Origin: Gammaproteobacteria bacterium Gsub | Lineage (GTDB): Bacteria; Pseudomonadota; Gammaproteobacteria; PS1; Pseudothioglobaceae | DNA: 64,000 nucleotides | Direction: 5' to 3' | Assembly (NCBI GenBank): GCA_002007405.1 | Contig: JYIN01000002.1 | Coordinates: 1-64,000 of the forward strand | In this document: positions 3,001-45,469 of the stretch, in pieces | Numbering within the stretch: the first letter of the stretch is position 1 | Layout of the letters: every line of letters begins with the position of its first letter | Notes under the pieces: generated by a model | Seen by the model: the letters and a program-made list of their open reading frames with translations, nothing else | What the model was told of the DNA's origin: nothing | Database searches by the model: none | Translations under genes and position numbers: made by a program

Positions 3001-6000
3001 GATGGTGATAATGATGTGTTAGCATCCTTAAACGATAGGATTGTCTGGTATGAAAATAATGGCACTGGCGAGTTTACCGTTAATAGTACAATTATTGAGC
3101 GCAATAATATTGGTGGTGAAATATTTGCCATTGACCTTGATGGCGATACGGATATAGATGTCCTATCAGCTTCACCCAGTTCTAATAGGGTCACCTGGTA
3201 TGAAAATGATGGCACTGGCAGGTTTAGTGCTAATGCCAATAGCATAATTACCGTTGCTGCCAACAATACTAACTCAGTATTTGCCATTGACCTTGATGGC
3301 GACTTTGATAACGATGTGTTATCAGTTTCATCAATTGACACTAATGTTATTTGGTATGAAAACGATGGCAATGGTAGGTTTAGCAGTGGCACCATAATTG
3401 GCAATGCTCCTGGCGGACAACAAACAGTATTTGCCACTGATATTGATAATGATGGAGATAATGATGTGCTATATAGTGGGTCTAGCCAAATTGCATGGTA
3501 TAGGAATAATATTACCAACGCAACAATTACCCCACCTAGAATCAACCTAGTAGCAATAGATGCGGCAAACATATTAAATACTATTCCACCCGTTGCAACT
3601 CCGCTCAATACTGGTGGTTATGTTGATAGTTGGTCAATTAGCCCAGTTTTAAGAGGGGGCGTTCTCCCTTCATTTAATACCCGTAGTGGCGCCTTATATG
3701 GCAGTTATATCCCAGGCACTGGCACTGCCACAACGCACACCATAACTGCTACCAATGCTGGTGGTAACCATAGCCTTATTGTTAATATTTTGCCAGCCAA
3801 TATCCCTCCAACTGTAAGTGCTGGTCCAGACCAATTTGTTAGTGCCAATGCACTGGTAACACTTAATGCCTCAGCCAACGACTCTGATGGCACAATTGTC
3901 AGTTATCAATGGGTGCAAATCGCAGGTGAAGAGGTAAATTTGTCAAACCCAACCTTCGCCTTGCCCACTTTTGATGCAAGTCCGGCCTCAGATTTGGGTG
4001 AAGTTTTAGTATTTAGGGTTACAGTTACTGATAATAGTGGTGGCGTTGCAAGTGACGAGGTGGCTATTACCACAGGTGTTATTGAGGGTCCAATTATCAG
4101 TGTTAATCCTAACAGCCTTATTGTAACTGTAGGCGTTGCCATCACCCCGATTACAATTACCTCTACTGGGGGTGCGGTTGATAATTATGCCGTTAATCCA
4201 GCCATTGCAAACGGCTTGGCATTTAGCACCGCAACTGGCACTATCGAAGGCACCCCGCTTGCTGCTGCTACGACTGTTATCTACACCATCACTGCCACTA
4301 ATGCCAGTGGCACAGATACCGCAACGGTGGGTATTTATGTCAATGCTCCTCCCATTGCCAGCGCTGGGGATGACCAAATCGTTGCCGCTGATGCGATAGT
4401 TACCTTAGACGGTTCAGGCAGCAGCGACTCCGATGGTTCAATCAGCGCCTATGCTTGGACGCAAACTGGGGGTACAACCGTTACCCTAACCAGCGCAGAT
4501 GCTGCCACCACAACCTTTGATGCCAGCCCTGCAAATGACAATGGTGAGACCCTAACTTTCCAAATAACCGTTACCGATAACCATGGTGCCACCGCTACTG
4601 ATGAGGCGGTGATTAGGGTTGATGTTATTGCGCTCCCCAGAATCAGTGCCAATCCTAGTAGTCTTATTGCAATTGTGGGTATTGCCATCGACCCAATTAC
4701 AATTACCTCTACTGGGGGCACGGTTAATAGTTATGCCGTTAATCCAGCCATTGCAAACGGCTTAACATTTAGCACCGAAACTGGCACTATAGAAGGCACC
4801 CTAACTGCCACAGGCAACTTTGATTACACCATCACTGCTACTAATGCTACAGGCACAGATACCGCAAGTGTTAATATTGCTGTTGTTGAGTTTAGTGCCA
4901 ATACAGTAACTCTAGATGCTGATAACGCTCGTTCAGTATTTGCCATTGATCTTGATGGTGATGGCGACAATGACATACTCTCAGCTTCAAGTAGGGATAA
5001 TAAAATTGCATGGTATGAAAATGATGGCAGTGGTGGGTTTAGCACTAATACCAACACCGTCATTACAACAGATGCTGATGGTGCTTTCTCAGTATTTGCT
5101 ATTGATCTAGACGGTGATGGTGATAATGATGCACTCTCGGCTTCACAAACTGATAATAAAATTGCATGGTATGAAAATGATGGCAGTGGTGGGTTTAGCA
5201 CTAATACCAACACTGTCATTACAACAGATGCTAATGGTGCTATTTCAGTATTTGCTATTGATCTAGACGGTGATGGTGATAATGATGTCCTCTCAGCCTC
5301 AGAAAATGACGATAGGATTGCTTGGTATGAAAATGATGGCAGTGGCACCTTTACTGCCAGAGATACCATTGATGTCAATGCCAAAGGTGCCACTTCAGTA
5401 TTTGCTATTGATCTAGACGGTGATGGTGATAATGATGTCCTCTCAGCCTCAGCTATTGATAATAAGGTTGCATGGTATGAAAATAATGGCAGTGGTGTCT
5501 TTATTGTCAATGATAATAGTGTGATTACAACAGATGTGTTGGGTGCTCGATCAGTATTTGCTATTGATCTAGACGGTGATGGTGATAACGATGTCCTCTC
5601 AGCCTCGGCTATTGATAATAAAATTGCATGGTATGAAAATGACGGCAATGGTGTCTTTAATTCTGGCACCACGATTGATACCATGGCCATTGGTGCTGCC
5701 TCAGTATTTGCCATTGACATGGACGGTGATTTTGATAATGATGCACTCTTAGCTTCAACTTCTAATAACGAGGTTGTTTGGTATGAGAATGATGGTGTGG
5801 GTGGGTTTACTAAGATTGTCATTAGCAGTGATGATGCACTTGTCAGGTCTGTTTTTGCTATTGACCTTGATAATGATGGCGATAACGATGTGATCTCAGC
5901 TTCTATCAGTAATAATAAAATTACTTGGTATAGAAATAATATCTCGTCTCCAGTCACCCCACCAAATATTAGTTTTGAGACCGCATTAAATTCTGAAGGC

Positions 6001-9000
6001 AACCTAAATCCGATTCCACCGGTAGCAACCCCAACCAATGCTGGCGGCTTTGTTGATAGCTGGTCAGTCGCCCCGCCTTTAACTGGGGGTCTTATGCCTT
6101 CGTTTAATACTCGTAGCGGTGCGCTGTATGGTGGTTATGTGCCCGGCATTGGCACCCCAACAACACATATCGTAACTGCCACTAACGCTGGTGGTAGTGC
6201 CACCTTTAGGATTGATATTGTACCACCCAATGTGCTCCCAATTGCCAACGCAGGAGATGAGCAAACTGTTGTCGCCAATGCAATTGTTACTCTAGACAGC
6301 TCAGCCAGTAGCGACCCTGACGGCACAATCACCAGCTTTGTGTGGACTCAAATCGCGGGTACAGCAGTAACTTTGTCATCTACAAATACTGCCCAAACTA
6401 CTTTTAATGCTAGCCCTGCTGATGATAAAGGTGAGACTTTAGTTTTTGAAGTTGAGGTCAGCGATGATGACGGCGCCACTGCCATAGCAAGGGTTAATAT
6501 TGTTGTTGAAGCAGTGCCTAATCAGCCACCGACTGCCGATGCTGGTGCCGACCAAAGTGTTGCTTATAACGCTATAGTTACCTTAGATGCCACAGACAGC
6601 GATGATGCCGATGGCATAATTAACAATTATCAGTGGCGTCAAATCTTGGGTACAGTTATCCCCTTTGATAATACCAATGTTGCGACCCTAACTTTTGTTG
6701 CTAGCCTTATTGGTGAGGGTGGTGGCACCTTAGTTTTTGAAGTTGAGGTTAGCGATGATGACGGCTCAACAGATACAGCAAGGGTTAATATTATTGTAAA
6801 TTCTCTTGCTACACCAGAAATCATTGCTAGCGTTAGTAGTTTAAATGCAATTGCAGGCGTGACAGATGTCCGTATAACAATTGATGACCTTGCAGGCGGT
6901 GCGGTTGATAGTTATTCAATTAAGCCAGATATTACCAATGGTCTGGAATTTAACACTGCAACAGGTGTCATTGAGGGCACTCCACTTGTTGTAGCTGATA
7001 CAATTGACTACACAATAACTGGAATTAATACCATAGGTGAGGATACTACAACAGTTAGTATCACAGTTATTGAACAGTTTGCTGATGGTGTTACAATTAG
7101 CCCTAATGCTGGTGGCGCCAGTTCAGTATTTGCCATTGATCTAGACGGTGATGGTGATAATGATGTCCTCTCTGCCTCAGCGACTGATAATACAATTGCT
7201 TGGTATGAAAATGATGGCAGTGGTGCCTTTACCACTAATGCCAATACTATTATTACCACCAATGCGTTTGGTGCGAATTCTGTGTTTGCCATTGACCTTG
7301 ATGGCGATGGCGATAATGACGCATTATCTGCCTCAGCGACTGATAATACAATTGCTTGGTATGAAAATGATGGCAATGGCGCTTTCATTAATAGTACCAT
7401 AATTGATAATAATGCCAAAGGTGCCAGCTCAGTATTTGCCATTGACCTTGATGGCGATGGCGATAATGACGCGCTTTTAGCCTCAGCAGTTGACGGCAGT
7501 ATTATTTGGTATGAAAACAATGGCAGTGGTACTTTTACCAATAGCACTATAATTGATGCCAATGCTGGTGGTGCTGCCTCAGTATTTGCCATTGACTTAG
7601 ATGCGGATGGCGATAACGATGTGCTTTCAGTTTTAAGAGATGATGACAGTATTATTTGGTATGAAAATAATGGAGACGGTGCTTTTATCAATAGTACCAT
7701 AATTGATAATAATGCCAAAGGTGCCAGCTCAGTATTTGCCATTGACTTAGACGCGGATGGTGATAACGATGTACTTTTAACCTTAAGAGAGAGTGGTGTT
7801 ATTGCCTGGTATGAAAATGACGGTAGTGGCACTTTTGCCGATAGATTCACGATTGATGCCAATGCCAGTGGTGCTGCCTCAGTATTTTCCGCTGACTTGG
7901 ATGGTGATGGCGATAACGATGCACTTTTAGCCTCAGCTACTGATAATGAGGTTGTTTGGTATGAGAATAATCGCCTTACTCCAATCGCCCCGCCAAGTAT
8001 TAGATTGCCACTGAGTGCAACAGATAACACAAACAATCTAAATTCTATACCTCCAGTGGTAACTCCACTTAATAGTGGTGGTTATATTGATAGTTGGAGC
8101 ATCAGCCCAGTTTTAAGAGGCGGCAACTTCCCCTCATTTAACACCCGTAGTGGCGCCTTATATGGCACTTACACCCCTGGTCCTGGCACTACCACAACTC
8201 ATACCATAACTGCTATCAATGCTGGTGGCACCGATACTCTTAGGGTTAATATTATCGTGCCTAATCAACCCCCCACTGCCAACGCTGGGGATGACCAGAG
8301 CGTTGCCGCTGGTGCAATCGTTACCCTCAATGCTGGAGAAAGCACTGACCCAGATGGCACAATCGCCACTTTTGCTTGGACGCAAACTGGAGGCACAACC
8401 GCTACCTTATCAGCAACAAACACTGCCCAAGTAACTTTTGTTAGTAGCAGCGCAGGCGAGACTCTATCTTTTGAAGTTATCGTTACCGATGATGACGGCG
8501 CCACAGACTCGGCAACGGTTAGGGTTACCATTGAGGCAGACACCACCCCACCGATTATCACCATACTTGGTGATAACCCTCTCACCCTAAATATTGGCGA
8601 AGTCTATAATGATGCAGGGGCAGTGGCAACAGATAATGTAGATGGCAGTATAACCAGCAGAGTTACTGTTGTTAATAGTGTAGTAACCAATACTACAGGC
8701 ACCTACACTGTCATCTACAGTGTTAGTGATACCGCAGGCAATACAACGCAGGCAAGTAGAACTGTTGTTGTCAATGCCCCTCCTATTGCCAATGCTGGGG
8801 ATGACCAGAGCGTTGCCGCTGATGTAATCGTTACCTTAGATGCTTCAGGCAGCAACGACCCCGATGGCTCAATCAGCACCTATGCCTGGACACAAACCGG
8901 AGGCACAACCGTTACCCTAACCAGTGCAGATGCTGCCACCACAACCTTTGATGCCAGCCCTGCAAATAACAATGGTGAGACCCTAACTTTCCAAATAACC

Positions 9001-10686
9001 GTTACTGATAACCATGGCGCTACTGCTGTTGATAGTGTAAATATCACTGTTGAGATTGCCGCGCCCAGCATTACTGCCAGCCCCGCAACGCAAAATGTGC
9101 TTGTAGGCACTGCTATTTCGCCTATCACTATTACCAACAGCGGTGGTCCAGCCAGCACTTATACAATTAACCCAGAGCTTGCACAAGGTTTATCACTTAG
9201 CACTGCAACTGGCAGTGCCACCATTTCTGGTGTTCCAACTCAGATTACTGATTTGAGCTATGTTATCACTGCCACGAATACCAATGGTGCAGGTAGCACA
9301 ACAGTTAGTATTAGTGTTGAGCCTGAATTTGTGGCTACCACGATTACCACTAATGCTGATGATGCTTACTCAGTATTTGCCATTGACCTTGACGGGGATG
9401 GTGATAACGATGTGCTGTCTGCATCATCTCTTGATAGTAAAATCGCTTGGTATGCAAATGATGGCAGTGGTGGGTTTAGCACTGGCACCACAATTACCAC
9501 TAATGCTGGTGGTGCTAGATCGGTATTTGCCATTGACCTTGACGGCGATGGGGATAGTGATGTCCTATCTGCATCATTTCTTGATAATAAGATCGCCTGG
9601 TATGAAAATGATGGCAGTGGTGGGTTTAGCACCAATACTAATAGTGTGATTGCCACTAATGCTAATGGTGCTATCTCAATATTTGCCATTGATTTAGATG
9701 GGGATGGGGATAGTGATGTCCTATCTGCATCAGTTAACGATGATAAAATCGCTTGGTATGCAAATGATGGCAGTGGCAATTTTAGCACTCGCACTGCGAT
9801 TGCCACCAATGCTGATAGTGCTCGCTCAGTATTTGCCATTGACTTAGACGGTGATGGGGATAGTGATGTGTTATCTGCATCTGACATTGACAATAAGATT
9901 GCTTGGTATGAAAATGATGGCAGTGGCGGGTTTAGTACTAATACCAATACTGTAATTACCACTAATGCTGATGGTGCTTTCTCAGTATTTGCTATTGACC
10001 TTGATGGGGACGGTGATAATGATGTGTTATCTGCATCACAATTTGATAATAAGATCGCTTGGTATGAAAACAACGGCAGTGGTGGGTTTAGCACCAATGC
10101 TAATAGCGTAATTACCACAGGTGCTAGTTTTGCTCAATCAGTATTTGCCATTGATTTAGACGGGGATGGGGATAACGATGTTCTATCTGCATCATTTAGG
10201 GATAATAAAATCGCTTGGTATGAAAATGATGGCAGTGGCGACTTTAGCGCCAATACTAATAGTGTGATTGCCACTAATGCTAATGATGCTAGCTCAGTAT
10301 TTGCCATTGACCTTGACGGCGATGGGGATAACGATGTGTTGTCAGCCTCACAAAACGATGATAAGATCGCTTGGTATCGCAATGATAGGGCGAACAGTGC
10401 AATCAACCCACCCATCATCAGCCTAAGCCAACCAGCAGTGGATAGTGAAAATAATCTAAACGCTATTCCCCCCGTTGCAATCCCACTTAATAATGGCGAT
10501 TTTGTTGATAGTTGGAGCATCAGCCCAGTTTTAAGAGGCGGCAACTTCCCCTCATTTAACACCCGTAGTGGCGCCCTATATGGCACTTACACTCCCGGCA
10601 CTGGCACTGCCACAATCCACACCATCACTGCTACCAATGCTGGTGGCACTGACACCTTTGAGGTTAAAATCCGCCCGCCTGAGTAA
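1..10686 (+). CDS. Giant multidomain beta-propeller/PKD/Ig-like surface or secreted protein (5' end outside window)
   Basis: The reading frame is open from base 1, so the true start lies upstream and at least 3561 residues are present. The protein alternates Ig-like (putative-Ig/He_PIG type) modules, PKD-like modules (for example near 1920-2210, 3800-4075, 4345-4625, 6230-6510, 6520-6810, 8265-8540, 8775-9055) and five blocks of FG-GAP/VCBS blades. One module near 8540-8775 resembles DUF5011/HYR bacterial Ig. Blades carry DLDGDGDND calcium-binding-type loops followed by a WYEND motif. The last module is Ig-like and the protein ends in VKIRPPE, with no RTX nonapeptides, LPXTG or autotransporter barrel visible. 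This modular type is usually extracellular and adhesive; the exact role and secretion route are unknown. In a symbiont it could mediate host contact (inference). Confidence 0.9.
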   Translation, partial: RGATATASVNITVEIARPNISASPQTQQVAINTQIQTVTITADAGGPVDSYSITPPIENGLVFDNTSGAISGTPNALGSFDYTITATNTTGTDTTSVNITVGPVAPSITASPQTQQVVIHSPITNVVITSIGGTVDSYSITPAIAAGLEFNTATGAIEGIPSIGGSFDYTIIATNATGTDTASVSIVVEVEFTPFTITTNASDAIAVFAIDLDGDFDNDVLSVLSATDEIVWYENDGSGGFSTNTNSVITATANNPRSVFAIDLDGDGDVDVLSSSANDNKIAWYENDGNGGFSTNANSIITTDADNASSVFAIDLDGDGDNDVLSASPNDDKIAWYENDGSGNFNTGTTITNNARSAQLVFAIDLDADGDNDVLSASFADNKIAWYENDGSGVFSTNANSVITTNADGARSVFAIDLDGDGDNDVLSASSGDNKIAWYRNNGLGEFDTGIIITTSAGGAFSVFAIDLDGDGDNDVLSASFNDNKIAWYENDGSGGFSTGTTITTTARGARSVFAIDLDGDNDNDVLSASLNDNKVAWYRNDIINSAIIPPSINLTQPAVDGENNLNTIPPVATPLNSGGYIDSWSISPVLRGGNLPSFNTRSGALYGSYTPGTGTATTHIITATNAGGTDTLRVNILEPNQPPIADAGDGQTVAANAIVTLDGGESTDPDGTITSFVWAQVAGTIVPLSATNTAQITFNASAANSAGETLVFEIEVSDNKGATATARVNIVIATAGDPPIITASPANQRKAINNPIDEITITSSGGVVESYSITPEITGGLTFSTETGTISGISTATGSFNYIITASNSAGIDTTSVTIVVEVEFATATRITTNVNNVYSVFAIDLDNDGDDDVLSAAESSDGVAWYRNNGLGEFSAALTISNDFVNNIFATDLDGDGDNDVLASSFIFGDILWYRNDGAGAFNDSNARNIIDDDFPSVDSVFAIDLDGDGDNDVLSASFFGDKIAWYKNDGSGNFGAGTTITTSVGGAHSVFAIDLDGDGDNDVLASLNDRIVWYENNGTGEFTVNSTIIERNNIGGEIFAIDLDGDTDIDVLSASPSSNRVTWYENDGTGRFSANANSIITVAANNTNSVFAIDLDGDFDNDVLSVSSIDTNVIWYENDGNGRFSSGTIIGNAPGGQQTVFATDIDNDGDNDVLYSGSSQIAWYRNNITNATITPPRINLVAIDAANILNTIPPVATPLNTGGYVDSWSISPVLRGGVLPSFNTRSGALYGSYIPGTGTATTHTITATNAGGNHSLIVNILPANIPPTVSAGPDQFVSANALVTLNASANDSDGTIVSYQWVQIAGEEVNLSNPTFALPTFDASPASDLGEVLVFRVTVTDNSGGVASDEVAITTGVIEGPIISVNPNSLIVTVGVAITPITITSTGGAVDNYAVNPAIANGLAFSTATGTIEGTPLAAATTVIYTITATNASGTDTATVGIYVNAPPIASAGDDQIVAADAIVTLDGSGSSDSDGSISAYAWTQTGGTTVTLTSADAATTTFDASPANDNGETLTFQITVTDNHGATATDEAVIRVDVIALPRISANPSSLIAIVGIAIDPITITSTGGTVNSYAVNPAIANGLTFSTETGTIEGTLTATGNFDYTITATNATGTDTASVNIAVVEFSANTVTLDADNARSVFAIDLDGDGDNDILSASSRDNKIAWYENDGSGGFSTNTNTVITTDADGAFSVFAIDLDGDGDNDALSASQTDNKIAWYENDGSGGFSTNTNTVITTDANGAISVFAIDLDGDGDNDVLSASENDDRIAWYENDGSGTFTARDTIDVNAKGATSVFAIDLDGDGDNDVLSASAIDNKVAWYENNGSGVFIVNDNSVITTDVLGARSVFAIDLDGDGDNDVLSASAIDNKIAWYENDGNGVFNSGTTIDTMAIGAASVFAIDMDGDFDNDALLASTSNNEVVWYENDGVGGFTKIVISSDDALVRSVFAIDLDNDGDNDVISASISNNKITWYRNNISSPVTPPNISFETALNSEGNLNPIPPVATPTNAGGFVDSWSVAPPLTGGLMPSFNTRSGALYGGYVPGIGTPTTHIVTATNAGGSATFRIDIVPPNVLPIANAGDEQTVVANAIVTLDSSASSDPDGTITSFVWTQIAGTAVTLSSTNTAQTTFNASPADDKGETLVFEVEVSDDDGATAIARVNIVVEAVPNQPPTADAGADQSVAYNAIVTLDATDSDDADGIINNYQWRQILGTVIPFDNTNVATLTFVASLIGEGGGTLVFEVEVSDDDGSTDTARVNIIVNSLATPEIIASVSSLNAIAGVTDVRITIDDLAGGAVDSYSIKPDITNGLEFNTATGVIEGTPLVVADTIDYTITGINTIGEDTTTVSITVIEQFADGVTISPNAGGASSVFAIDLDGDGDNDVLSASATDNTIAWYENDGSGAFTTNANTIITTNAFGANSVFAIDLDGDGDNDALSASATDNTIAWYENDGNGAFINSTIIDNNAKGASSVFAIDLDGDGDNDALLASAVDGSIIWYENNGSGTFTNSTIIDANAGGAASVFAIDLDADGDNDVLSVLRDDDSIIWYENNGDGAFINSTIIDNNAKGASSVFAIDLDADGDNDVLLTLRESGVIAWYENDGSGTFADRFTIDANASGAASVFSADLDGDGDNDALLASATDNEVVWYENNRLTPIAPPSIRLPLSATDNTNNLNSIPPVVTPLNSGGYIDSWSISPVLRGGNFPSFNTRSGALYGTYTPGPGTTTTHTITAINAGGTDTLRVNIIVPNQPPTANAGDDQSVAAGAIVTLNAGESTDPDGTIATFAWTQTGGTTATLSATNTAQVTFVSSSAGETLSFEVIVTDDDGATDSATVRVTIEADTTPPIITILGDNPLTLNIGEVYNDAGAVATDNVDGSITSRVTVVNSVVTNTTGTYTVIYSVSDTAGNTTQASRTVVVNAPPIANAGDDQSVAADVIVTLDASGSNDPDGSISTYAWTQTGGTTVTLTSADAATTTFDASPANNNGETLTFQITVTDNHGATAVDSVNITVEIAAPSITASPATQNVLVGTAISPITITNSGGPASTYTINPELAQGLSLSTATGSATISGVPTQITDLSYVITATNTNGAGSTTVSISVEPEFVATTITTNADDAYSVFAIDLDGDGDNDVLSASSLDSKIAWYANDGSGGFSTGTTITTNAGGARSVFAIDLDGDGDSDVLSASFLDNKIAWYENDGSGGFSTNTNSVIATNANGAISIFAIDLDGDGDSDVLSASVNDDKIAWYANDGSGNFSTRTAIATNADSARSVFAIDLDGDGDSDVLSASDIDNKIAWYENDGSGGFSTNTNTVITTNADGAFSVFAIDLDGDGDNDVLSASQFDNKIAWYENNGSGGFSTNANSVITTGASFAQSVFAIDLDGDGDNDVLSASFRDNKIAWYENDGSGDFSANTNSVIATNANDASSVFAIDLDGDGDNDVLSASQNDDKIAWYRNDRANSAINPPIISLSQPAVDSENNLNAIPPVAIPLNNGDFVDSWSISPVLRGGNFPSFNTRSGALYGTYTPGTGTATIHTITATNAGGTDTFEVKIRPPE
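571..1629 (+). repeat. FG-GAP/VCBS repeat block 1 (7 blades)
   Basis: Seven consecutive units of about 150 bp each encode VFAIDLDGDGDNDVLSAS followed by a spacer and a WYEND or WYRN strand. The block opens with a lone strand (FTITTNA) and the last unit is cut short after WYRND, as expected if first and last strands close one seven-bladed propeller. The units are also similar at DNA level. Confidence 0.85.
2473..3513 (+). repeat. FG-GAP/VCBS repeat block 2 (7 blades)
   Basis: Seven units with the same plan as block 1 but more diverged, for example IFATDLDGD and VFATDIDNDGD starts and one unit with a shortened DVLASLNDR strand. The end is WYRNN followed by an Ig-like module. The greater divergence suggests it has escaped recent homogenisation. 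Confidence 0.82.
4888..5940 (+). repeat. FG-GAP/VCBS repeat block 3 (7 blades)
   Basis: Seven units. The first five are close to the consensus and share long near-identical DNA stretches (such as ctagacggtgatggtgataa), which indicates recent duplication. The sixth and seventh are more diverged. It is preceded by an Ig-like module and followed by another. Confidence 0.83.
7072..7971 (+). repeat. FG-GAP/VCBS repeat block 4 (6 blades)
   Basis: Only six VFAIDLD-type units are present over about 900 bp, against seven over about 1050 bp in the other four blocks. Several units share the INSTIIDNNAKGASS linker, so unequal exchange within the block is plausible. The last unit reads VFSADLDGD and ends at WYENN. 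Confidence 0.82.
9325..10386 (+). repeat. FG-GAP/VCBS repeat block 5 (7 blades)
   Basis: Seven units close to the consensus, three carrying DGDSDVLSAS instead of DGDNDVLSAS. The block is followed by a single Ig-like module and the stop codon at 10684-10686. Confidence 0.83.
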
Positions 10687-31550: not shown

Positions 31551-32406
31551 ATGACCAAGTTAGACTATCTGAATGTGGGATGTGGAAATAAGTTCCATAA
31601 AGAATGGGTTAATGTAGATATGATTTCTAATAGTTCGTATGTGATGGCCTATAATTTCCTTAAAGGAATACCGCTGCCTAATAATCAATTTGATGTTGTT
31701 TATCATTCACAAGTATTAGAACATTTTCCGAAAGAAAAAGCCCCTGATTTTATTAGCGAATGTTTTCGTGTTTTGAAGCCAAATGGCATTATCAGAATTG
31801 TTGTTCCTGATTTAGAAAACATTGTAAAAGAATACACAAAATACTTACATGAAAATATCAATAACTCAAACACACAAGCCGAAGCCAATTACGATTGGAT
31901 CTTACTGGAAATGTATGACCAGACTGTAAGAAACTATCCTGGAGGTCAAATGGCACAGTTTTTAAAGCAAGCAGACATTGTAAATGAAAAATATTATTGA
32001 AAGAATTGGGTATGTAGGCACAAATATTAGGGATAATTTTTTAGCAAAAAAGGATGGCAAACAAGGCGTTTTTAATTTTATAAAAATTGCAAAGAAAGCT
32101 GGAATACGAAAAGTCAGTAGATACATTATTAAAAAAATAACCCATATTTTTTCTTCACAAGCACAAAAAATAGGCTCGTTTCGCCTAGGTGGAGAGATTC
32201 ATATGTGGATGTATGACCAATTTTCTCTTTCAAGGTTATTGCGAGAAGCTGGATTTAAAGATATAGCCGTAAAAAATCCTTATAAAAGTAGCATTCCTCA
32301 ATGGGATAAATATGAATTAGATGTTAAAGATGGCATGGTATTTGACCCCACATCTTTGTTTATGGAGGCAAGAAAGCCAAGACCGAAAGAAGCCATTACA
32401 AAATAA
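31551..32406 (+). pseudogene. SAM-dependent methyltransferase (type 11), split by a one-base frameshift
   Basis: The first reading frame (31551-32000, 149 residues) has the SAM-binding motif YLNVGCGNKFHKEWVNVD, the VYHSQVLEHFP segment and the FRVLKPNG strand. The second (31984-32406, 140 residues, the next frame) has RLGGEIHMWMYDQFSLSRLL and SLFMEARKP, the usual C-terminal half of the same family. Removing one A from the AAAAA run at about 31986-31991 would join them as VNENIIERIG. So this is one gene broken by a homopolymer slip, or a sequencing error. Such methyltransferases often act in surface-polysaccharide synthesis; the substrate here is unknown. Confidence 0.85.
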
Positions 32407-36156: not shown

Positions 36157-37575
36157 ATGGCTAAAGTTTATGATGCGGGTGTAAAAGAATACCGCGAAAC
36201 TTATTGGATGCCGGATTATACGCCGTTAGATACGGATATTCTGGCTTGTTTTAAAGTAACGCCACAAGACGGTGTGCCTCGTGAGGAAGTCGCAGCAGCA
36301 GTTGCCGCTGAGAGTTCAACAGGTACATGGACAACGGTATGGACAGATTTATTAACGGATCTTGACCATTACAAAGGTCGTGCTTATGCGATTGAAGATG
36401 TCCCCGGTGATGATACTTGTTTTTACGCCTTTGTTGCCTATCCACTTGACTTATTTGAAGAAGGTTCAGTTGTTAATGTCATGACTTCTTTAGTGGGCAA
36501 TGTTTTTGGTTTTAAAGCATTGCGGGCATTAAGATTAGAAGATGTTCGTTTTCCAATTGCTTATGTAGTTACTTGTAATGGTCCACCACAAGGTATCCAA
36601 ATGGAACGCGATATTTTAAATAAATATGGTCGTCCTTTGTTGGGTTGCACCATTAAACCTAAATTGGGTTTATCTGCTAAGAATTACGGTAGAGCATGTT
36701 ACGAAGGTCTTCGTGGCGGTCTTGACTTTACCAAAGATGATGAAAACATTAACTCCCAGCCATTTATGCGCTGGAGAGGTCGTTTTGATTTTGTTATAGA
36801 AGCCATTCATAAAGCAGAAGCAGAAACAGGTGAACGCAAAGGTCATTATTTAAATGTAACAGCACCAACTTCTGATGAGATGATGAAGCGTGCTGAATAC
36901 GCAAAAGAAATTGGTGCGCCAATTATTATGCATGACTACATCACAGGTGGTTGGTCAGCCAATACACAATTAGCACAATGGTGTCAAGACAATGGTATGT
37001 TATTACATATTCACCGTGCAATGCATGCGGTGCTAGATCGCAATCCACATCATGGTATTCATTTCCGTGTATTAGCTAAAATTTTGCGTCTCTCAGGTGG
37101 TGATCACTTACATTCAGGCACCGTTGTTGGTAAATTAGAAGGTGATAGAGAAGCTACTCTTGGCTGGATTGATATTATGCGTGATTCATTCATTAAAGAA
37201 GATAGAAGTCGTGGTATATTCTTTGATCAAGATTGGGGATCTATGCCTGGTGTTATTCCAGTAGCATCTGGTGGTATTCATGTTTGGCATATGCCAGCAT
37301 TGGTTAATATCTTTGGTGATGACTCTTGCCTACAATTTGGTGGTGGCACACTCGGTCATCCATGGGGTAATGCTGCTGGTGCGGCGGCTAACCGTGTGGC
37401 GGTTGAGGCCTGTGTTGAGGCACGCAATCAAGGTCGCGAATTGGAGAAAGAAGGCAAGGATATTCTAACTAATGCTGCCAAGCATTCTCCAGAATTAGCC
37501 GCAGCTATGGATACTTGGAAAGAAATCAAATTTGAATTTGATACCGTTGACAAAATTGATGTGGCTCACAAATAA
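36157..37575 (+). CDS. cbbL: RuBisCO form I large subunit
   Basis: A 472-residue large subunit that fixes CO2 onto ribulose-1,5-bisphosphate. Catalytic residues are visible: Lys167 and Lys169 in TIKPKLG, the carbamylated Lys193 with Asp195 and Glu196 in FTKDDEN, His in HIHRAMHA, and [16 protein letters not shown] (loop 6). The presence of cbbS downstream and these sequences place it in form I, probably the IAq type found with cbbQ/cbbO. No carboxysome genes follow. This is the key gene for autotrophy in the window. Confidence 0.98.
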
Positions 37576-37596: not shown

Positions 37597-37944
37597 ATGC
37601 AAGATTATCAATCAAGTTTAAGCAATCCAGAAAGTCGTAAATTTGAGACTTTCTCATACTTGCCAACTTTAGACGCTGCCCAAACACGCCAGCAAGTTCA
37701 ATACATTATTGATAAAGGCTGGAATCCAAGTATTGAACATACTGAGCCAGAAAATGCCTCAGGATCATACTGGTACATGTGGAAGTTACCAATGTTTGGT
37801 GAAACAGATGTTGATGCTATCCTTACCGAGTTGGAAAATTGTCATACAGCACACCCAAACAATCATGTGCGTTTGCTAGGTCTTGACAACTTTGCACAAT
37901 GTGCTGGCACTTCGATGGTTGTCTATCGGGGCGTAACAGTTTAG
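37597..37944 (+). CDS. cbbS: RuBisCO form I small subunit
   Basis: A 115-residue small subunit. [20 protein letters not shown] and [14 protein letters not shown] are family signatures. It begins 21 bp after cbbL with ribosome site AGGAGA. A terminator-like hairpin follows 31 bases downstream of the stop, so cbbLS may be transcribed in excess over the genes further on. Confidence 0.98.
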
Positions 37945-38072: not shown

Positions 38073-38387
38073 ATGAATAAACCAGATACCTATGTTGGCA
38101 TTAATAATGAGATTAATGGAGGCATGACCACAATTGGTAAGATTATCCGTGATGCTTGGGTGTTTGGTATTCTAGATGAGAGTGAAACTTGTCAAGGCTG
38201 GAACTTAGCAGGTATTGATGGTGTGTTACAAAAAGTTAATAACGAGTGGGACAAATACGGCTGCTTAGTCAGTCAGTTGCCACCAGAGTTGGCAAAACGC
38301 CATCGTGAAATTCACTATAAAGCGTTTCAACAAGCCAAAGAAGCGGGCTGGTCTGGCGAGATTGAAACTGATGACGAGGATGAATAA
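38073..38387 (+). CDS. Small conserved-looking protein in the cbb operon, unknown function
   Basis: A 104-residue soluble protein with no signal peptide. It starts MNKPDTYVGINNEINGG, includes the Trp-rich GWNLAGIDGVLQKVNNEWDKYG segment and ends in an acidic tail (ETDDEDE). Codon use and composition resemble its cbb neighbours, unlike the following gene. Its stop overlaps the next start by one base. Its place between cbbS and cbbQ suggests a role tied to RuBisCO, but no family was recognised. Confidence 0.75.
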   Translation: MNKPDTYVGINNEINGGMTTIGKIIRDAWVFGILDESETCQGWNLAGIDGVLQKVNNEWDKYGCLVSQLPPELAKRHREIHYKAFQQAKEAGWSGEIETDDEDE

Positions 38388-38937
38388 TGACGGAGAATGT
38401 GTTAAATATTGAAAGTATCTCCGATTTAATTATTGTTATTAGGGATATGCCTGTCATTCTTGATAGTGATGTTGCAAGGTTTTATGGTGTTGCAACTAAA
38501 GAAGTCAATCAGGCAGTTAAAAACAATCTAGATAAATTTCCTATTGATTTTATTTTGACATTAAGTACAAATGAATTAGATGATTTGCGGTCAAAATTTT
38601 TGACCGCAAATTTATCAAAAACCAGAACACCGCCTAAAGCTTTTACTGAAAAAGGTTTGTATATGTTGGCAACGATTTTAAAATCTAAACAAGCCACCAA
38701 AACTACCCTGAAGATTATTGAAACTTTTGCCAAAATTAGAGACTTAAAACAAGATTTTAATCAAATTTTAAACGAAAAAAAAATGCAGATAGAAAAGACC
38801 GTATTGGTACAAAATTTAGCAAAGAACTAATGGATTTATTTTTAGACGAAGGGTTAGAAAATCAGTCTAGTGAAACTAAAATAAAGTTTTCTATATTTGG
38901 AATGAGCTTAGAAAAATCAATTAAAAAGAGCAAATAA
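38387..38937 (+). pseudogene. ORF6N-domain (phage antirepressor-like) protein, frameshifted
   Basis: The main frame (38387-38830, 147 residues) shows an ORF6N DNA-binding domain: IRDMPVILDSDVARFYGVATK, NLDKFPIDFILTL and PPKAFTEKGLYMLATILKS. The frame stops at 38830, but the next frame continues DRIGTKFSKELMDLFLDEG and onward to TAA 38937, which looks like the natural C-terminus. Adding one base in the A-run near 38790-38795 would join them. The gene sits between the small cbb-operon gene and cbbQ. ORF6N proteins are common in phages and mobile regions, so this is probably an inserted, decaying cargo gene. Confidence 0.78.
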
Positions 38938-38951
38938 CAAGGAGAGCAACA

Positions 38952-39767
38952 ATGTCTGACACAAAAGTAGATGCAAAACAATATATCATTAAAGACGAAC
39001 CTTATTACGAACCTATTGCCGATGAAGTGGAAATGTATGAGGCCGCTTATGGCGTGCATATGCCAGTTATGCTCAAAGGACCAACGGGTTGTGGCAAATC
39101 TCGTTTTGTTGAATACATGGCATGGAAGCTTAAAAAACCACTTATCACCATTGCTTGTAATGAAGATATGACTGCCTCTGATTTGGTTGGTCGTTTTTTA
39201 TTGGACAAAGATGGTACTAAATGGCAGGACGGCCCTCTAACCACTGCGGCAAGAATAGGGGCAATTTGTTATTTAGATGAGGTTGTAGAAGCACGCCAAG
39301 ATACAACAGTTGTCATCCATCCACTAACAGACCACCGCCGCACTCTACCTTTAGACAAAAAAGGTGAGTTAATTAAGGCACATTCTGATTTTCAACTGGT
39401 TATTTCTTATAATCCGGGTTATCAATCTCTAATGAAAGATTTAAAACAATCCACCAAACAACGATTTGGTGGTATGGATTTTGATTATCCTGAAGCGGAA
39501 TTAGAAACTACCATTGTTACCAAGGAATCTGGTGTTGATAAAAAAACTGCCGAAAAATTAGTCCAGATTGCTCATCGTGCCCGCAATCTCAAAGGTCATG
39601 GTTTGGATGAAGGCATTTCAACGCGTTTGCTAGTTTATGCTGGGCAGTTAATCAATCAAGGCATAAGCACGCAAGCGGCATGTTCAATGACAATGATTAC
39701 TCCTTTAACAGATGACCCAGATATGCGCGATACATTAAACGCAGCCGTTCAGACTTTTTTGGGATAA
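38952..39767 (+). CDS. cbbQ: RuBisCO activase AAA+ subunit CbbQ
   Basis: A 271-residue MoxR-type AAA+ ATPase forming the ring part of the CbbQO RuBisCO activase, which removes inhibitory sugar phosphates from RuBisCO. Walker A is GPTGCGKS (residues 43-50), Walker B ICYLDEVVEARQD, and sensor/arginine segments follow (VISYNPGYQS). The ribosome site AAGGAGAG lies before the ATG. Its partner cbbO is displaced about 3 kb downstream by a restriction cassette. Confidence 0.96.
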   Translation: MSDTKVDAKQYIIKDEPYYEPIADEVEMYEAAYGVHMPVMLKGPTGCGKSRFVEYMAWKLKKPLITIACNEDMTASDLVGRFLLDKDGTKWQDGPLTTAARIGAICYLDEVVEARQDTTVVIHPLTDHRRTLPLDKKGELIKAHSDFQLVISYNPGYQSLMKDLKQSTKQRFGGMDFDYPEAELETTIVTKESGVDKKTAEKLVQIAHRARNLKGHGLDEGISTRLLVYAGQLINQGISTQAACSMTMITPLTDDPDMRDTLNAAVQTFLG

Positions 39768-39789: not shown

Positions 39790-39818
39790 TTGAGATTTTT
39801 TGAGGTGTAAACTAAAAT
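39790..39818 (+). promoter_or_regulatory. Candidate promoter of the restriction-modification cassette
   Basis: TTGAGA (39790-39795), a 17-base spacer and TAAAAT (39813-39818). The start codon at 39824 is only five bases beyond the -10 box and no ribosome site is present, so transcription from here would give an almost leaderless mRNA. Confidence 0.45.
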
Positions 39819-39823
39819 AAAGC

Positions 39824-40654
39824 ATGAATAATATACACTTTAAAAACTCTCAAAAAATGAGTCATATTAAGAGTGATTCTGTTGATTTAATCATTACCTC
39901 CCCGCCTTATTTTAATATTAAAGACTATGCTAAAAACGGCTATCAAGATGAAATACATTCAAAAAACCATACTAGCCAAATAGGTGATATAAAAAATTAT
40001 AAAACTTTCATTCAAGAGTTACAAAAAGTGTGGAAAGAATGTGAAAGAGTATTGAAACCAAATGGAAAATTAATCATCAATACACCATTAATGCCAATGA
40101 AAAAAAAAGAATTTACCACGCATTATAATCGGCATATTTTTGACTTAAACTCTGATATACAAGCGTCTATTATTTATAGAAAAAATACTCAAATATTTTT
40201 GTTTGATACCTATATTTGGAATAGAACCAACACTTCAAAAAGTTTAATGTTTGGTAGTTATCCTTATCCAAGAAACTTTTACGCTCAAAATACTAGCGAG
40301 TTTATCACGGTATATGTCAAAGACGGTATCCCAAAAAATGGACTACCAAGCGAGACAAAAGAAAAAAGTAAATTAACTCAAAAAGAATGGGTGGAATATA
40401 CTAAACAAATATGGAATATTCCAATACCTAATAAAACCGATTTAGCCTTTGGCGACCATTCAGCAATAATGCCAGAAGAGATAGTAAAAAGATGTGTGAA
40501 ACTTTTTTCATTTGTGGGGGATACTGTACTTGACCCTTTTGCGGGCAGTGGCACTACCTTAAAAGTCGCCAAAGAGTTAGAAAGAAACTATATTGGTTAT
40601 GAAATAATGGACAACTATAAACAAATTATAGAAAAAAAATTAAATAGTGTTTAA
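39824..40654 (+). CDS. DNA methyltransferase M1 (probably N4-cytosine) of a restriction cassette
   Basis: A 276-residue amino-methyltransferase. The catalytic motif IV TSPPYF (residues 25-30) precedes the SAM-binding motif I DPFAGSGTT (237-245), giving beta-class order. SPPY is the form typical of N4-cytosine enzymes. It lies 56 bp after cbbQ with no ribosome site and is followed 8 bp later by the nuclease gene. Together with the second methyltransferase it would protect the two strands of an asymmetric site. AT-rich with lysine-heavy coding, unlike cbbQ and cbbO. Confidence 0.92.
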   Translation: MNNIHFKNSQKMSHIKSDSVDLIITSPPYFNIKDYAKNGYQDEIHSKNHTSQIGDIKNYKTFIQELQKVWKECERVLKPNGKLIINTPLMPMKKKEFTTHYNRHIFDLNSDIQASIIYRKNTQIFLFDTYIWNRTNTSKSLMFGSYPYPRNFYAQNTSEFITVYVKDGIPKNGLPSETKEKSKLTQKEWVEYTKQIWNIPIPNKTDLAFGDHSAIMPEEIVKRCVKLFSFVGDTVLDPFAGSGTTLKVAKELERNYIGYEIMDNYKQIIEKKLNSV

Positions 40655-40662
40655 GGGTAACC

Positions 40663-41988
40663 ATGTTTGTACAAAATCAAATCAGCCATTTGGATAATCA
40701 TCAAGATATTATTACAAACGAAATAGACAACGCGGACAAAATGCTATTTGTTGTTGCTTATGTTAGGGAAAATGGCGTAGATGTTATTTTAGATAAAACA
40801 AAAAATAAGCCCACTAAATTACTTTGTAGTTTAGATATGGGTATCACACAATTATCAGGCATTAAAAAACTCATTGAAAACGGTGTAAAGGTTAAAGTGT
40901 ACCAAAGTGATAAAGGAACATTTCATCCTAAAATATGGTTATTTGGCAAGAATAAAACTGATTGGAAAATGTTGATTGGTTCGGCAAATCTAACACGAGC
41001 AGCATTCATTGATAATGTAGAGGCTAGTGTTTTGGTTGATGACAAAAATACAACTTCAACTGCTTTAATATTTTTCAACTATCTTTGGGACAAGAAAAAT
41101 TCAAGCACAATTACTATTGATGAAGTTAATTCCCTGCAAGAAAAAGTTAATGAGCGAAAGGCATTTAAAAACAAACCCATTCAAATTAAAGAAAGCCAAG
41201 AGGACGCTGAAAAGAATGCAATTCTTTTTGAATATGTTAAAAGTTGGATAGATATACCAAAATATAACAGTAAGGGCATAAGTTCGTTATGGCGTGGCTG
41301 GTATATTATTCCAGACCAAGGGCGCATCAACAATAAACATATTAAAAATTTAATCAGTTATTTGCCTTTTATTGATAACGGGATTGCATTAGGCGATAAT
41401 TCTAATGATAAAAACTATATAGACTTATTAGCTAGATTTAAAATAAATAGTAATTTCCAGAGACAAGCACTAAAAACATCCTTACACGGTCTATTTACTC
41501 GTCAAGCTAAAAACTACCTTGTAAAATTTGGTTGGTGCCATCAGCCAGATTCAAAAACCTTGTGTTTAACTGGCTTAGGGAGGCAAATAAATCAATGCAA
41601 TGATATAAATTGTGTAAAAACCTTGTATTCAGAATATTTTTATAATTATTTCTATAATGGTTTAAATATTGTTCGATTCAGCAAACAATTGTTGCAAATA
41701 TTAGAGTATTTAACGATTGATGAGTTTAATTATTTTGTTATTCACGCATACAGCAACGATGATTTTGATATTATTGTTAATTTGATTAAAATTTACCGTT
41801 CTCTTTTAAATTCAAGTAAATTCAAACAGGATTTTAGCCAATACTTTCAAGACAAAAAAGGAGGAACAGCAAAAGGCGTTTATATTAACTATGAAAAAAG
41901 TATTAAACATACATTAAGTGTTATTGGTTGGTGCGAAGGTTTTTCCTTAAGTGATGACTTTATATTGAGATTAGATAATGCAAACTAA
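40663..41988 (+). CDS. PLD-family (BfiI/NgoFVII-like) restriction endonuclease
   Basis: A 441-residue protein whose N-terminal 130 residues form a phospholipase-D-type nuclease: His88 and Lys90 in FHPKIWLFG, Asn109 in GSANLTRAAF and Glu120 in NVEASVLV. BfiI-type enzymes use one such motif per subunit, dimerise and cleave without metal ions. The C-terminal 300 residues, presumably the DNA-recognition part, were not recognised. It is sandwiched between two methyltransferases, and its last 11 bases overlap the second one. A type II/IIS function is inferred from this context. Confidence 0.88.
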   Translation: MFVQNQISHLDNHQDIITNEIDNADKMLFVVAYVRENGVDVILDKTKNKPTKLLCSLDMGITQLSGIKKLIENGVKVKVYQSDKGTFHPKIWLFGKNKTDWKMLIGSANLTRAAFIDNVEASVLVDDKNTTSTALIFFNYLWDKKNSSTITIDEVNSLQEKVNERKAFKNKPIQIKESQEDAEKNAILFEYVKSWIDIPKYNSKGISSLWRGWYIIPDQGRINNKHIKNLISYLPFIDNGIALGDNSNDKNYIDLLARFKINSNFQRQALKTSLHGLFTRQAKNYLVKFGWCHQPDSKTLCLTGLGRQINQCNDINCVKTLYSEYFYNYFYNGLNIVRFSKQLLQILEYLTIDEFNYFVIHAYSNDDFDIIVNLIKIYRSLLNSSKFKQDFSQYFQDKKGGTAKGVYINYEKSIKHTLSVIGWCEGFSLSDDFILRLDNAN

Positions 41989-42817
41989 TTCGACTAGACA
42001 ATCAGATGTTTTTTATAAAAAATCAAAAAAGCAAGTCATAACAGCAAAGGTTGATAAAATTTATAATCTTGATGTATTTGATTTTTTAAATACTAAAGTT
42101 GCAGATAATTCTGTTGATTTAGCAGTTATTGACCCACCTTACAATATGAAAAAAGCAGATTGGGATACTTTTAAAAACCAAGACGACTTTTTAAATTTTA
42201 CTTTCTCTTGGATAAATGCACTTTTACCAAAATTAAAAGAAAATAGCAGTTTGTATATTTTCAACACCTCTTTTAATTCCGCTTATATTTTGCAGTTTTT
42301 AGTAGAACAGGATTTAGAGTTTAAAAATTGGATTGTATGGAATAAACAAGACGGTATCAGCGCGCCAAAAAATAAATTTGTTAATGGCAGTGAAACTATT
42401 TTATTTTTTACTAAGGGACGCCCCGTGTTTAATTTTGATGATATTAGGCAGCCATATAAGAACACAGACAGAATGAAGCATGCCGCTAAGAAAGGTATTA
42501 TAAAAAATGGCAAAAGATGGTTTCCCAATCCTAATGGTAGATTGTGTTCTGAGGTTTGGGATTTTAGTAGCGAGAGACATAAAAATAAAGTAAATGGTAA
42601 AACACAAAAAATGTCGCATTTAACCCCTAAGCCAAAAGACATGATAGAGAGAATTATTAAAGCTAGTTCTAGTAAGGGAGATTTAGTTTTAGATTGTTTT
42701 ATGGGCAGTGGCACGACTGCTGTTGTTAGTAAAAAGTTAAATAGAAATTTTATTGGTTGTGAGAAAAATAAGCAATACTATAAGTTATGTGCTATCAATA
42801 TCATACTTGATGAATAG
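41978..42817 (+). CDS. DNA methyltransferase M2 of the restriction cassette
   Basis: A 279-residue beta-class amino-methyltransferase with motif IV IDPPYNM (DPPY at residues 52-55) and motif I DCFMGSGTT (239-247). It also has NWIVWNKQDG and HLTPKPKDMIERII segments typical of the family. DPPY is the usual form in N6-adenine enzymes but N4 cannot be excluded. It starts within the nuclease gene and ends 34 bp before cbbO. Confidence 0.92.
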   Translation: MQTNSTRQSDVFYKKSKKQVITAKVDKIYNLDVFDFLNTKVADNSVDLAVIDPPYNMKKADWDTFKNQDDFLNFTFSWINALLPKLKENSSLYIFNTSFNSAYILQFLVEQDLEFKNWIVWNKQDGISAPKNKFVNGSETILFFTKGRPVFNFDDIRQPYKNTDRMKHAAKKGIIKNGKRWFPNPNGRLCSEVWDFSSERHKNKVNGKTQKMSHLTPKPKDMIERIIKASSSKGDLVLDCFMGSGTTAVVSKKLNRNFIGCEKNKQYYKLCAINIILDE

Positions 42818-42851: not shown

Positions 42852-45212
42852 ATGTCAAAAATATTATTAGAAGAATATTCCGAATTTTTAGAACAAGTTA
42901 CACCCGAAGTCAAGGATGTGATTGATGCGACTTTTCATGATGCGGCGCGCGTTATTTCGCCCGCTGGGCTTAAAGGGTATTTAGATGGCGCTAAGGCGTT
43001 ATGTAGTTTGGGTCGCGGCAATGATTTGGTGGTAACTTACCTTGAGGTTATGCCACAAATTGCTAAAGAATGTGGCGAAGATATTATTACAGATTGTGTA
43101 AGTAGCGCAATGAAAGTATCGTCTATGACATCTGGCGAGGTGATTGCTTTATTGTTATCCAGCTTGCCTGCAGTATCAAGACATTTAGGCGATGCCCAAT
43201 TGGTGCGCGGTTATCTTACTCTCATTCACCAACTCGCCTCAACGGCAGCACGGGGTTTGCGCCCTATGCTCACTCATATTGATGAATTGCTTGCCAAGCT
43301 CACCCTAAGTGGGTTACGGCGTTGGGCAAACTTTGGGGCTAAGGCGTATCGCCGAGATTTTAATAATTTAACGGCTTATTTTGCTCTTGAGTCAGCGGAT
43401 TCTCGCGCAATGTTGGAAAAAGAGCGCCGCGGTGTTTTGTTTATCAAGGTTCAAAGAAAGCTTAATTTTTATTTGCGCGCATTGTGGGGGCGTGATTTTT
43501 TTATTCGTCCAACGGGGGCAGATTACACTGATTTTCGCCCTTATATAGAAAACAAAATTATTTATGTGCCAGATGCGCTTGACGACATTAAAACTAACAC
43601 ACAAAACATTAGAGGCTTAGAAATCTACCGTGCAACTGTAGCCCATATGGCAGCGCATATGATCTACACCCATCAAGCAATGTCAGCGGAGCAACTGAGC
43701 CCAGCACAAATGTTTTTTATTGGATTGCTTGAAGATGCACGCATTGAGTATAAGGCCATTAGTGCATTTCCGGGGTTAAAAAAATTATGGAAATCATTGA
43801 TATTAGTGGAATATGAAGATCCTGTAGAGCATAAAACAGTTGCTATTTTAGAAAAATTTACATTACAACTATTGGACCCAACGGAACAAAATAATGATGA
43901 TAAACAACTCAATGATTTTGCCAAAAAGTTTCATCAAAAAATTGCACAAAACCAAGACAACAATCATTTTTCTTGGTTGATGGGTATTGAGCTTTACAAC
44001 ATTTTTGCTGGGCGCAAGGCAGTGCCAAGTTTGAGAATTTTAGAGCGTTACCGTATCGCTTATCGCGATGATAATCGCATTATTTGGCATTATGAAGACA
44101 TTAATTGGGACAGAGGAATTGAATATATAGCAGCTAGTCAAAAACAAATTCGTTATGAAGTCAGCCCATTGATGATGGCGCATGAAGTTGATTGTGAGTT
44201 AGCTGGGGATGATGCACAAGAAATCTGGACTTGTAAAGATATAATGCGAACCTATGAAGACGATTTAACCGATGAGGCTACCTCGTTTAATGAAATTATG
44301 GGTAAAGAGCCTATTTCCCAACCTTATCATTACCAAGAGTGGGATTATCAAATCCAACTCCATCGACCTGATTGGGCAACAATTTATGAGCGCCGACCCA
44401 GCAAGGGCGACCCTGAACAAATTGATAAAATTCTAATGGAGTATAAGCCGATTGCGCACCGTATCCGTCAAATTATTGATTTGTTAGCACCTGCAGGTGT
44501 CCAGCGCCAACGAGGTTTAGAAGATGGCGACGAGGTAGATATTAATGCTGCAATAGATGCAACAGTTGCAATTCGCATGGGTGAGCAACCTAACCCCAGA
44601 ATTACCTTGCGTAATGTTTTAAAAACTCGCGATTTATCGGTTGTAGTGTTATTGGATTTGTCCGAATCCACCAACCAAACTATGGAGGGTTCAGATAAAA
44701 CCGTATTGCAATTAACCAAAGAAGCCACAGCCTTAGTTGCAACTGCAATTGAAGGCATTGGCGACTCATTTGCAATTCACGGGTTTGCCTCAGATGGTCG
44801 TCATGATGTGCAATATTATCGTTTTAAAGATTTTAATCAGTATTTTAAAGATGAGCCTAAATCTCGTTTGGCAGGCATGAAAGGTGGGCTATCTACACGC
44901 ATGGGTGCAGCCCTTAGACATGCTGGATACCACCTTTCCAAACAAAGAGAAAAACGCAAATTAATTTTGTTAGTAACTGATGGTGAGCCTGCTGATATTG
45001 ACGAAACAGACCCGCAACATTTGCGTTTTGATACTAAAAAAGCAGTGGAAGAATTATATTCAACAGGTATTTTATCTTATTGTCTAACCTTAGATCGCCA
45101 CGCTGATGATTATGTAAAACATATTTTTGGTGCTAATAATTACACTGTGATTGACCATGTTAATCGCCTACCAGAGCAATTACCTTTATTGTTTGCTAAT
45201 TTAACTGCATAA
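42852..45212 (+). CDS. cbbO: RuBisCO activase adaptor subunit CbbO
   Basis: A 786-residue protein with a C-terminal von Willebrand A domain. The MIDAS motif is in LLDLSESTNQ (about residue 600), with LVTDGEPADIDE further on. CbbO links the CbbQ ring to RuBisCO through its VWA domain. Length and domain order are typical. The start has no clear ribosome site (AAATACTATG), and the gene follows the restriction cassette instead of cbbQ, so its expression now depends on read-through or a local promoter. Confidence 0.95.
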   Translation: MSKILLEEYSEFLEQVTPEVKDVIDATFHDAARVISPAGLKGYLDGAKALCSLGRGNDLVVTYLEVMPQIAKECGEDIITDCVSSAMKVSSMTSGEVIALLLSSLPAVSRHLGDAQLVRGYLTLIHQLASTAARGLRPMLTHIDELLAKLTLSGLRRWANFGAKAYRRDFNNLTAYFALESADSRAMLEKERRGVLFIKVQRKLNFYLRALWGRDFFIRPTGADYTDFRPYIENKIIYVPDALDDIKTNTQNIRGLEIYRATVAHMAAHMIYTHQAMSAEQLSPAQMFFIGLLEDARIEYKAISAFPGLKKLWKSLILVEYEDPVEHKTVAILEKFTLQLLDPTEQNNDDKQLNDFAKKFHQKIAQNQDNNHFSWLMGIELYNIFAGRKAVPSLRILERYRIAYRDDNRIIWHYEDINWDRGIEYIAASQKQIRYEVSPLMMAHEVDCELAGDDAQEIWTCKDIMRTYEDDLTDEATSFNEIMGKEPISQPYHYQEWDYQIQLHRPDWATIYERRPSKGDPEQIDKILMEYKPIAHRIRQIIDLLAPAGVQRQRGLEDGDEVDINAAIDATVAIRMGEQPNPRITLRNVLKTRDLSVVVLLDLSESTNQTMEGSDKTVLQLTKEATALVATAIEGIGDSFAIHGFASDGRHDVQYYRFKDFNQYFKDEPKSRLAGMKGGLSTRMGAALRHAGYHLSKQREKRKLILLVTDGEPADIDETDPQHLRFDTKKAVEELYSTGILSYCLTLDRHADDYVKHIFGANNYTVIDHVNRLPEQLPLLFANLTA

Positions 45213-45214
45213 AT

Positions 45215-45469
45215 ATGTTTGAAAATGATGACACTTTAATAAACTTTAAGCCAAAATATCCCCACACATTGCCTGAAGATTGGAAAGACCATGACAATCC
45301 GACTGTTTATGAAATCAATGCAACATTGGAAACTTTAAAAAAAATGTATGCACAGCAAATTAAAGATTTAGAGAATGGTTTGATTGACAAAGAAGAGGGC
45401 GAGCATAATCTAAGAAATATAGCAACCAATTATCAGTCTATTAAATCAATACTTTTTCAAACACACTAG
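45215..45469 (+). CDS. Small soluble protein downstream of cbbO, unknown function
   Basis: An 84-residue protein starting two bases after the cbbO stop. It is mostly helical with charged residues (ETLKKMYAQQIKDLENGLID, then KEEGEHNLRNI) and no signal peptide. Its coupling to cbbO suggests co-expression with the activase; no family was recognised. It converges on prfB with a 10-bp gap. Confidence 0.7.
   Translation: MFENDDTLINFKPKYPHTLPEDWKDHDNPTVYEINATLETLKKMYAQQIKDLENGLIDKEEGEHNLRNIATNYQSIKSILFQTH

Follow-up and report, generated by a model that had tools for sequence, protein, structure and literature searches.

Three intact genes of restriction-modification (RM) type separate cbbQ from cbbO, the gene pair encoding the Rubisco activase, in the form I operon of Gsub, a sulfur-oxidising marine gammaproteobacterium of the family that includes the mussel symbionts, and our comparison with its relatives shows that they are a lineage-specific insertion at a junction that is a recurrent landing place for unrelated cargo in the Thioglobaceae. 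The explanation we consider probable is that an acquired RM system came to lie at a recurrent and stoichiometrically permissive cbbQ-cbbO junction. The window analysed here, by which we mean the whole stretch of 64 kb, belongs to a 211-kb contig, one of the 14 that make up a genome of 1.37 Mb rated 100% complete.

The cassette occupies 39824-42817 and all of its genes run in the direction of the operon, whose order is LysR (divergent), cbbL, cbbS, a 104-aa gene (p104) without a Pfam family match, an ORF6N gene, cbbQ, the cassette, cbbO and an 84-aa gene (p84) (Table 1). Coordinates, reading frames and Pfam matches thus agree with the original prediction, which placed three restriction genes between cbbQ and cbbO in the same direction. 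The genes are closely spaced, with the SPPY methyltransferase (MTase) 8 nt ahead of the nuclease and the nuclease overlapping the DPPY MTase by 11 nt, and their G+C content is about 30%, against 40% in cbbQ and cbbO and 38% in the window. The ORF6N gene, likewise of 30% G+C, begins at the final base of the 104-aa gene and looks like a second foreign insert, flanking cbbQ opposite the cassette; G056 has a 65% identical gene in the corresponding position (L074), and G053 retains a remnant there (L075). CbbQ of the window shares 84-89% identity with relatives whose cbbQ-cbbO junction is unbroken, and CbbO 75-84% with relatives having the same operon type. The named cbbO relatives include gill-dwelling thiotrophic symbionts of the mussels Bathymodiolus heckerae and B. 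brooksi as well as Candidatus Thioglobus bins, and from these names we assign the genome to the Thioglobaceae. Elsewhere in the window we noted a 3533-aa open reading frame (85-10686) and two overlapping frames (31551-32406) that resemble one methyltransferase gene broken by a frameshift.

Table 1. Features of the form I Rubisco operon and its inserts, in window coordinates.
Feature	Coordinates	Strand	Evidence
cbbL, form I Rubisco large subunit	36157..37575	+	Pfam RuBisCO_large E 3.5e-138
cbbS, Rubisco small subunit	37597..37944	+	Pfam RuBisCO_small E 9.6e-39
Conserved 104-aa gene (p104) of form I cbb operon	38073..38387	+	Between cbbS and cbbQ in many relatives
ORF6N-domain gene, upstream of cbbQ	38387..38830	+	Pfam ORF6N E 1.3e-27; PADLOC PDC-S05 E 3.9e-55
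cbbQ, AAA+ subunit of Rubisco activase	38952..39767	+	Pfam CbbQ_C, AAA_5
Possible promoter, TTGAGA-17-TAAAAT (weak)	39790..39818	+	Consensus scan, 10/12 matches; 5 nt before first cassette gene
SPPY DNA methyltransferase, 276 aa	39824..40654	+	Pfam N6_N4_Mtase E 8.5e-49
PLD-type restriction nuclease, 441 aa	40663..41988	+	Pfam PLDc_2 E 2.6e-12, RE_NgoFVII E 4.7e-10
DPPY DNA methyltransferase, 279 aa	41978..42817	+	Pfam N6_N4_Mtase E 7.8e-61
cbbO, VWA subunit of Rubisco activase	42852..45212	+	Pfam VWA
Conserved 84-aa gene (p84) after cbbO	45215..45469	+	Same position in most relatives

We searched 83 Thioglobaceae genomes for cbbQ and cbbO, mapped their operons, and found the order of the two genes strongly conserved, with a gap of about 7-102 nt in 60 of 65 cbbQ-to-cbbO junctions. 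Where both genes share a contig (n = 64) the median gap is 40 nt, and four junctions are broken by 1.2-9.8 kb (the window genome G000, G054, G044 and G049). Measured against that median the separation in the window is both real and unusual, and the short gaps of the family, together with a nuclease that finds no match in other family genomes except one marginal partial match, identify the cassette as a lineage-specific insertion. An ancestral arrangement is ruled out, since cbbQ and cbbO are direct neighbours in close relatives, and in this respect the spacing comparison supports insertion of the cassette, as had been proposed. Its arrival is not datable within the genus, because the sole other genome of that genus (G002, 86% complete) lacks both cbbQ and cbbO. 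A third lineage has the reversed order, cbbO first (L135 and L136 in G065 and G067; also G068, G076, G080 and G082), and there the gap is about 60 nt and unbroken where both genes share a contig. In other Gammaproteobacteria cbbQ and cbbO are usually close, as judged by eye among the matches listed, and the sole large insert among those matches was seen in G205, a gammaproteobacterium outside the Thioglobaceae (L139, 5099-7472), in which an RsmC-like methyltransferase and a SulP-type transporter, both named by eye and the latter possibly a bicarbonate transporter within the cbb operon, lie between the two genes, with no restriction genes.

The same junction has been interrupted repeatedly. In the window genome 3.1 kb lie between cbbQ and cbbO. 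G054 carries a 1.85-kb insert with a truncated DPPY MTase (E 5e-20) and an HNH protein (E 4e-7), with a scaffold gap inside it, and in G001 an HNH_2 endonuclease gene (E 2e-11; PADLOC HNH E 3e-30) follows cbbQ close to the end of its contig; cbbO of G001 lies behind a LysE-type gene on another contig, both contigs belonging to a low-coverage bin. Two further cases are in form II operons: a 9.8-kb insert in G049 containing HsdR, HsdM and HsdS pieces of a type I RM system with RhuM and HigBA-like genes, and a 1.2-kb insert in G044 with two ORFs, the first having a weak winged-helix match, and no recognised restriction domain. A possible sixth case is G066, in which 462 nt of non-cbbQ DNA precede cbbO and the bin has no cbbQ. 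On the CbbQ tree the five cases need five changes, of which at least four are forced by well-supported branches. One cassette common to the interrupted genomes is ruled out, for the inserts carry unrelated genes and, apart from the marginal partial match, the window genome alone in the family has the nuclease. Recurrence at this junction with unrelated cargo is thereby shown for the family, and unrelated restriction genes at one core-gene junction, as expected of a defence hotspot, are present in G000, G001, G049 and G054. The original prediction had suggested that the autotrophy operon may serve such cassettes as a safe harbour, and this idea gains from the four additional independent inserts, of which three carry genes recognisably of restriction type; as a whole it is only partly supported.

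Similar to defence islands and core-gene hotspots, cbbQ-cbbO is one conserved junction that holds different, unrelated restriction genes in different genomes. It differs from them in that no integrase, tRNA or att site was found there, that most often just one small RM unit has been inserted, and that the setting is a co-directional metabolic operon, with genes of a single protein complex on both sides. No dedicated recombinase was found among the ORFs of the inserts, and no convincing flanking repeat or target duplication: the only repeat, of 14 nt (38873-38886 and 39809-39822), is compatible with chance in DNA this rich in A+T. In G049, two 80-nt arms, 78% complementary and 3 nt apart, lie directly after cbbQ at the insert border (L085, 13167-13329). 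The likeness to the operon-inserted mobile RM systems of Kobayashi and colleagues is that an RM unit sits within an operon-like cluster; what sets the present case apart is that one junction has been struck repeatedly, and in two paralogous Rubisco operons.

These observations bear on a first alternative, namely that RM genes, which move often in relatives of the mussel symbionts, land wherever they are not lethal, cbbQ-cbbO being just one of numerous gaps that tolerate them and no favoured site. RM genes are known to be mobile and to insert widely, in operons as well as mobile units of many kinds (PMC3031569), and mussel symbionts are rich in them, carrying 10-22 RM genes compared with one in SUP05 (PMC4612132). 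The window genome itself has 11 PF01555 matches in total, and between lysA and yhbY (L002, 1501-1638, contig C14) it holds a decayed, frameshifted relic of a related SPPY MTase gene, 138 nt long, which matches the 5' end of the cassette SPPY gene from its ATG onwards at 75% identity and suggests that such systems have come and gone. As controls we surveyed alike the other junctions of the same operons, about 180 in number. No insert was found at cbbL-cbbS or cbbS-p104/cbbQ, and none above 388 nt at LysR-cbbL. Toxin-antitoxin or other genes have also landed at p104-cbbQ, where the window and G056 have the ORF6N gene, and between cbbO and p84, where inspection by eye showed VapB/VapC-like toxin-antitoxin genes before the 84-aa gene in the B. 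heckerae symbiont G059 (L069, 987-1615) and a DgkA-like gene in G053. Seven family genomes have an extra 830-850 nt at cbbM-cbbQ, probably from one old event; in the one of the seven that we examined, an antisense acyltransferase-like gene lies there (L129, 4446-5132).

Restriction-type inserts nevertheless separate this junction from the others, occurring in 4 of 65 cbbQ-cbbO junctions (G044 left out) versus none of about 180 elsewhere (Fisher p 0.005), or with p 0.017 without the window, which is the fair value because the window itself prompted the testing of this junction; event counts are small here and many comparison genomes are bins. For inserts of any type the excess at cbbQ-cbbO is borderline (p 0.058). 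Genes of PF01555, the MTase family of the cassette, occur in only 23 of the 83 family genomes, and the sole one of G054 lies at the cbbQ-cbbO junction. Because such genes are rare or absent in most of the family, repeated chance landings are unlikely, about 0.03-0.05 being expected. Five independent events at a single junction, with restriction inserts absent from the others surveyed, thus speak against a neutral accident, which we regard as improbable.

The cassette itself is probably a two-MTase, type IIS-like RM system, for which we infer restriction activity. Two N6_N4_Mtase genes adjoin a PLDc_2/RE_NgoFVII nuclease, as in type II RM systems. The DPPY MTase aligns over nearly its whole length with M1.MboIIA (PDB ID 1g60; E 4.8e-109, 151/246 residues or 61% identical) and is predicted to be an N6-adenine enzyme of the M1.MboIIA/M1.HpyAII type, acting on GAAGA. 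On a Helicobacter suis plasmid, an adjacent MTase pair has a first member 65% identical to our SPPY MTase and a second 51% identical to our DPPY MTase. We predict the SPPY enzyme to be an N4-cytosine MTase of the M2.HpyAII type (TCTTC), with the HpyAII type of the H. suis pair taken from its partner MTase rather than from a comparison with M2.HpyAII itself. HpyAII recognises GAAGA/TCTTC, its MTases producing m6A in GAAGA and m4C in TCTTC, and it cuts with an HNH nuclease, while the MboII nuclease is of the PD-(D/E)XK type (PMC7494987). The cassette likewise would target GAAGA/TCTTC. GAAGA is not depleted in the 64-kb window, so that no avoidance is seen there and the sequence lends the predicted target no confirmation, and besides the window no MboIIA-type MTase orthologue was found in 369 Gammaproteobacteria.

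The cassette thus shares an m6A MTase with HpyAII and MboII and pairs it with an SPPY enzyme predicted to be of the m4C type; in contrast, its nuclease is PLD-type rather than HNH or PD-(D/E)XK, and its gene order is M-R-M. The original prediction had called the nuclease BfiI-like, and this holds for the active site and the catalytic half of the protein. Residues H88, K90, N109 and E120 align with the catalytic residues H105, K107, N125 and E136 of BfiI (PDB ID 2c1l), and like BfiI the nuclease has a single HKD-type active site and two companion MTases. The likeness is limited to the catalytic part (phmmer E 0.01) and does not extend to the remainder: the C-terminal ~295 aa, in which a BfiI-like enzyme would have a B3-like DNA-binding domain, match nothing, residues ~146-441 having no Pfam match even at E 10, and the MTase pair is of MboII/HpyAII type. 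A single-sequence structure model reached a pLDDT of 34 and was unusable. Distant or weak N-terminal matches were all that we recovered in Gammaproteobacteria and in plasmids and phages, and an insensitive pattern scan of 84,980 species returned none. The H. suis plasmid nuclease beside the MTase pair contains an HHIVPL...N...H stretch that looks HNH-like by inspection, and it has no significant similarity to ours. A recognition domain common to both, suggested by eye from the pattern LT-EF--FV...LI--YR, was unsupported by shuffled alignments. Judged by its sequence, the cassette is outside the MboII/HpyAII group by its nuclease, and not demonstrably a BfiI system by its MTases and C-terminal domain.

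How the insert is borne by the operon leads to the second alternative, in which the cassette is retained because the Rubisco promoter ties its restriction and modification activities to growth by autotrophy, and in which it may tune the CbbQ:CbbO ratio, the latter a change that the original prediction had raised. All five inserts run in the operon direction (chance 0.03), the tight packing of the cassette genes could allow translational coupling, and the activase complex, which contains six CbbQ per CbbO (PMC4660213), requires unequal amounts of its subunits. Co-direction would be expected anyway, however, because opposed inserts would harm cbbO, and the promoter-like site just before the first MTase would permit independent expression, although a consensus scan gives 50 such sites in the region versus 39 expected. 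We accordingly give regulatory capture a low probability. A link between the insertion and the absence of an evident cbbO ribosome site is not supported. The site is indeed weak in the window, and in the window and G054 cbbO retains its start with no more than a few bases of leader, but the close relatives G050, G053, G056 and G058, whose junction is intact, also lack a clear Shine-Dalgarno sequence before cbbO. Removal of the site by the insertion is thereby ruled out, and cbbO translation may instead be weak by design. That the split is an artefact of assembly or binning is very improbable, since, although many comparison genomes are fragmented bins, with a scaffold gap in G054 and G001 on two contigs, the cassette of the window lies deep inside its contig with intact frames on either side and the inserts of G049 and G044 are each complete within one contig.

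In the explanation we favour, a type II, probably type IIS, RM system would have been acquired horizontally in this lineage and would have landed, still intact, between the cbbQ stop and the cbbO start codons. Its two MboII/HpyAII-type MTases would protect both strands of an asymmetric site, predicted as GAAGA/TCTTC, and its PLD-type nuclease, probably metal-independent, would cut unmethylated DNA. The insert may be tolerated by virtue of the CbbQ6:CbbO1 composition, which would let cbbO follow a lengthy insert and be produced in smaller amounts: a long insert would be best borne before cbbO because that gene is presumably needed at one sixth of the level of its neighbour. Co-directional RM genes could in turn gain transcription from the Rubisco operon by read-through. 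A stronger version, which we put forward only tentatively, is that the junction is a true selected hotspot, the sixfold need for CbbQ making it the one place in the Rubisco operon, be it form I or form II, where RM systems can cheaply ride on a strong autotrophy promoter, and that the PLD enzyme is a third unrelated nuclease fold fitted to the GAAGA MTase pair, whose partners elsewhere are HNH and PD-(D/E)XK nucleases.

Among the papers searched that name cbbQ and cbbO together with a symbiont, we found no mention of restriction-modification. The cassette offers a natural comparison of one MTase pair with three unrelated nuclease folds, and the repeated inserts suggest a simple rule by which mobile defence genes may settle in essential metabolic operons just before the low-dose subunit, with a bearing on how restriction genes reshape the genomes of chemosynthetic symbionts and their CO2 fixation.
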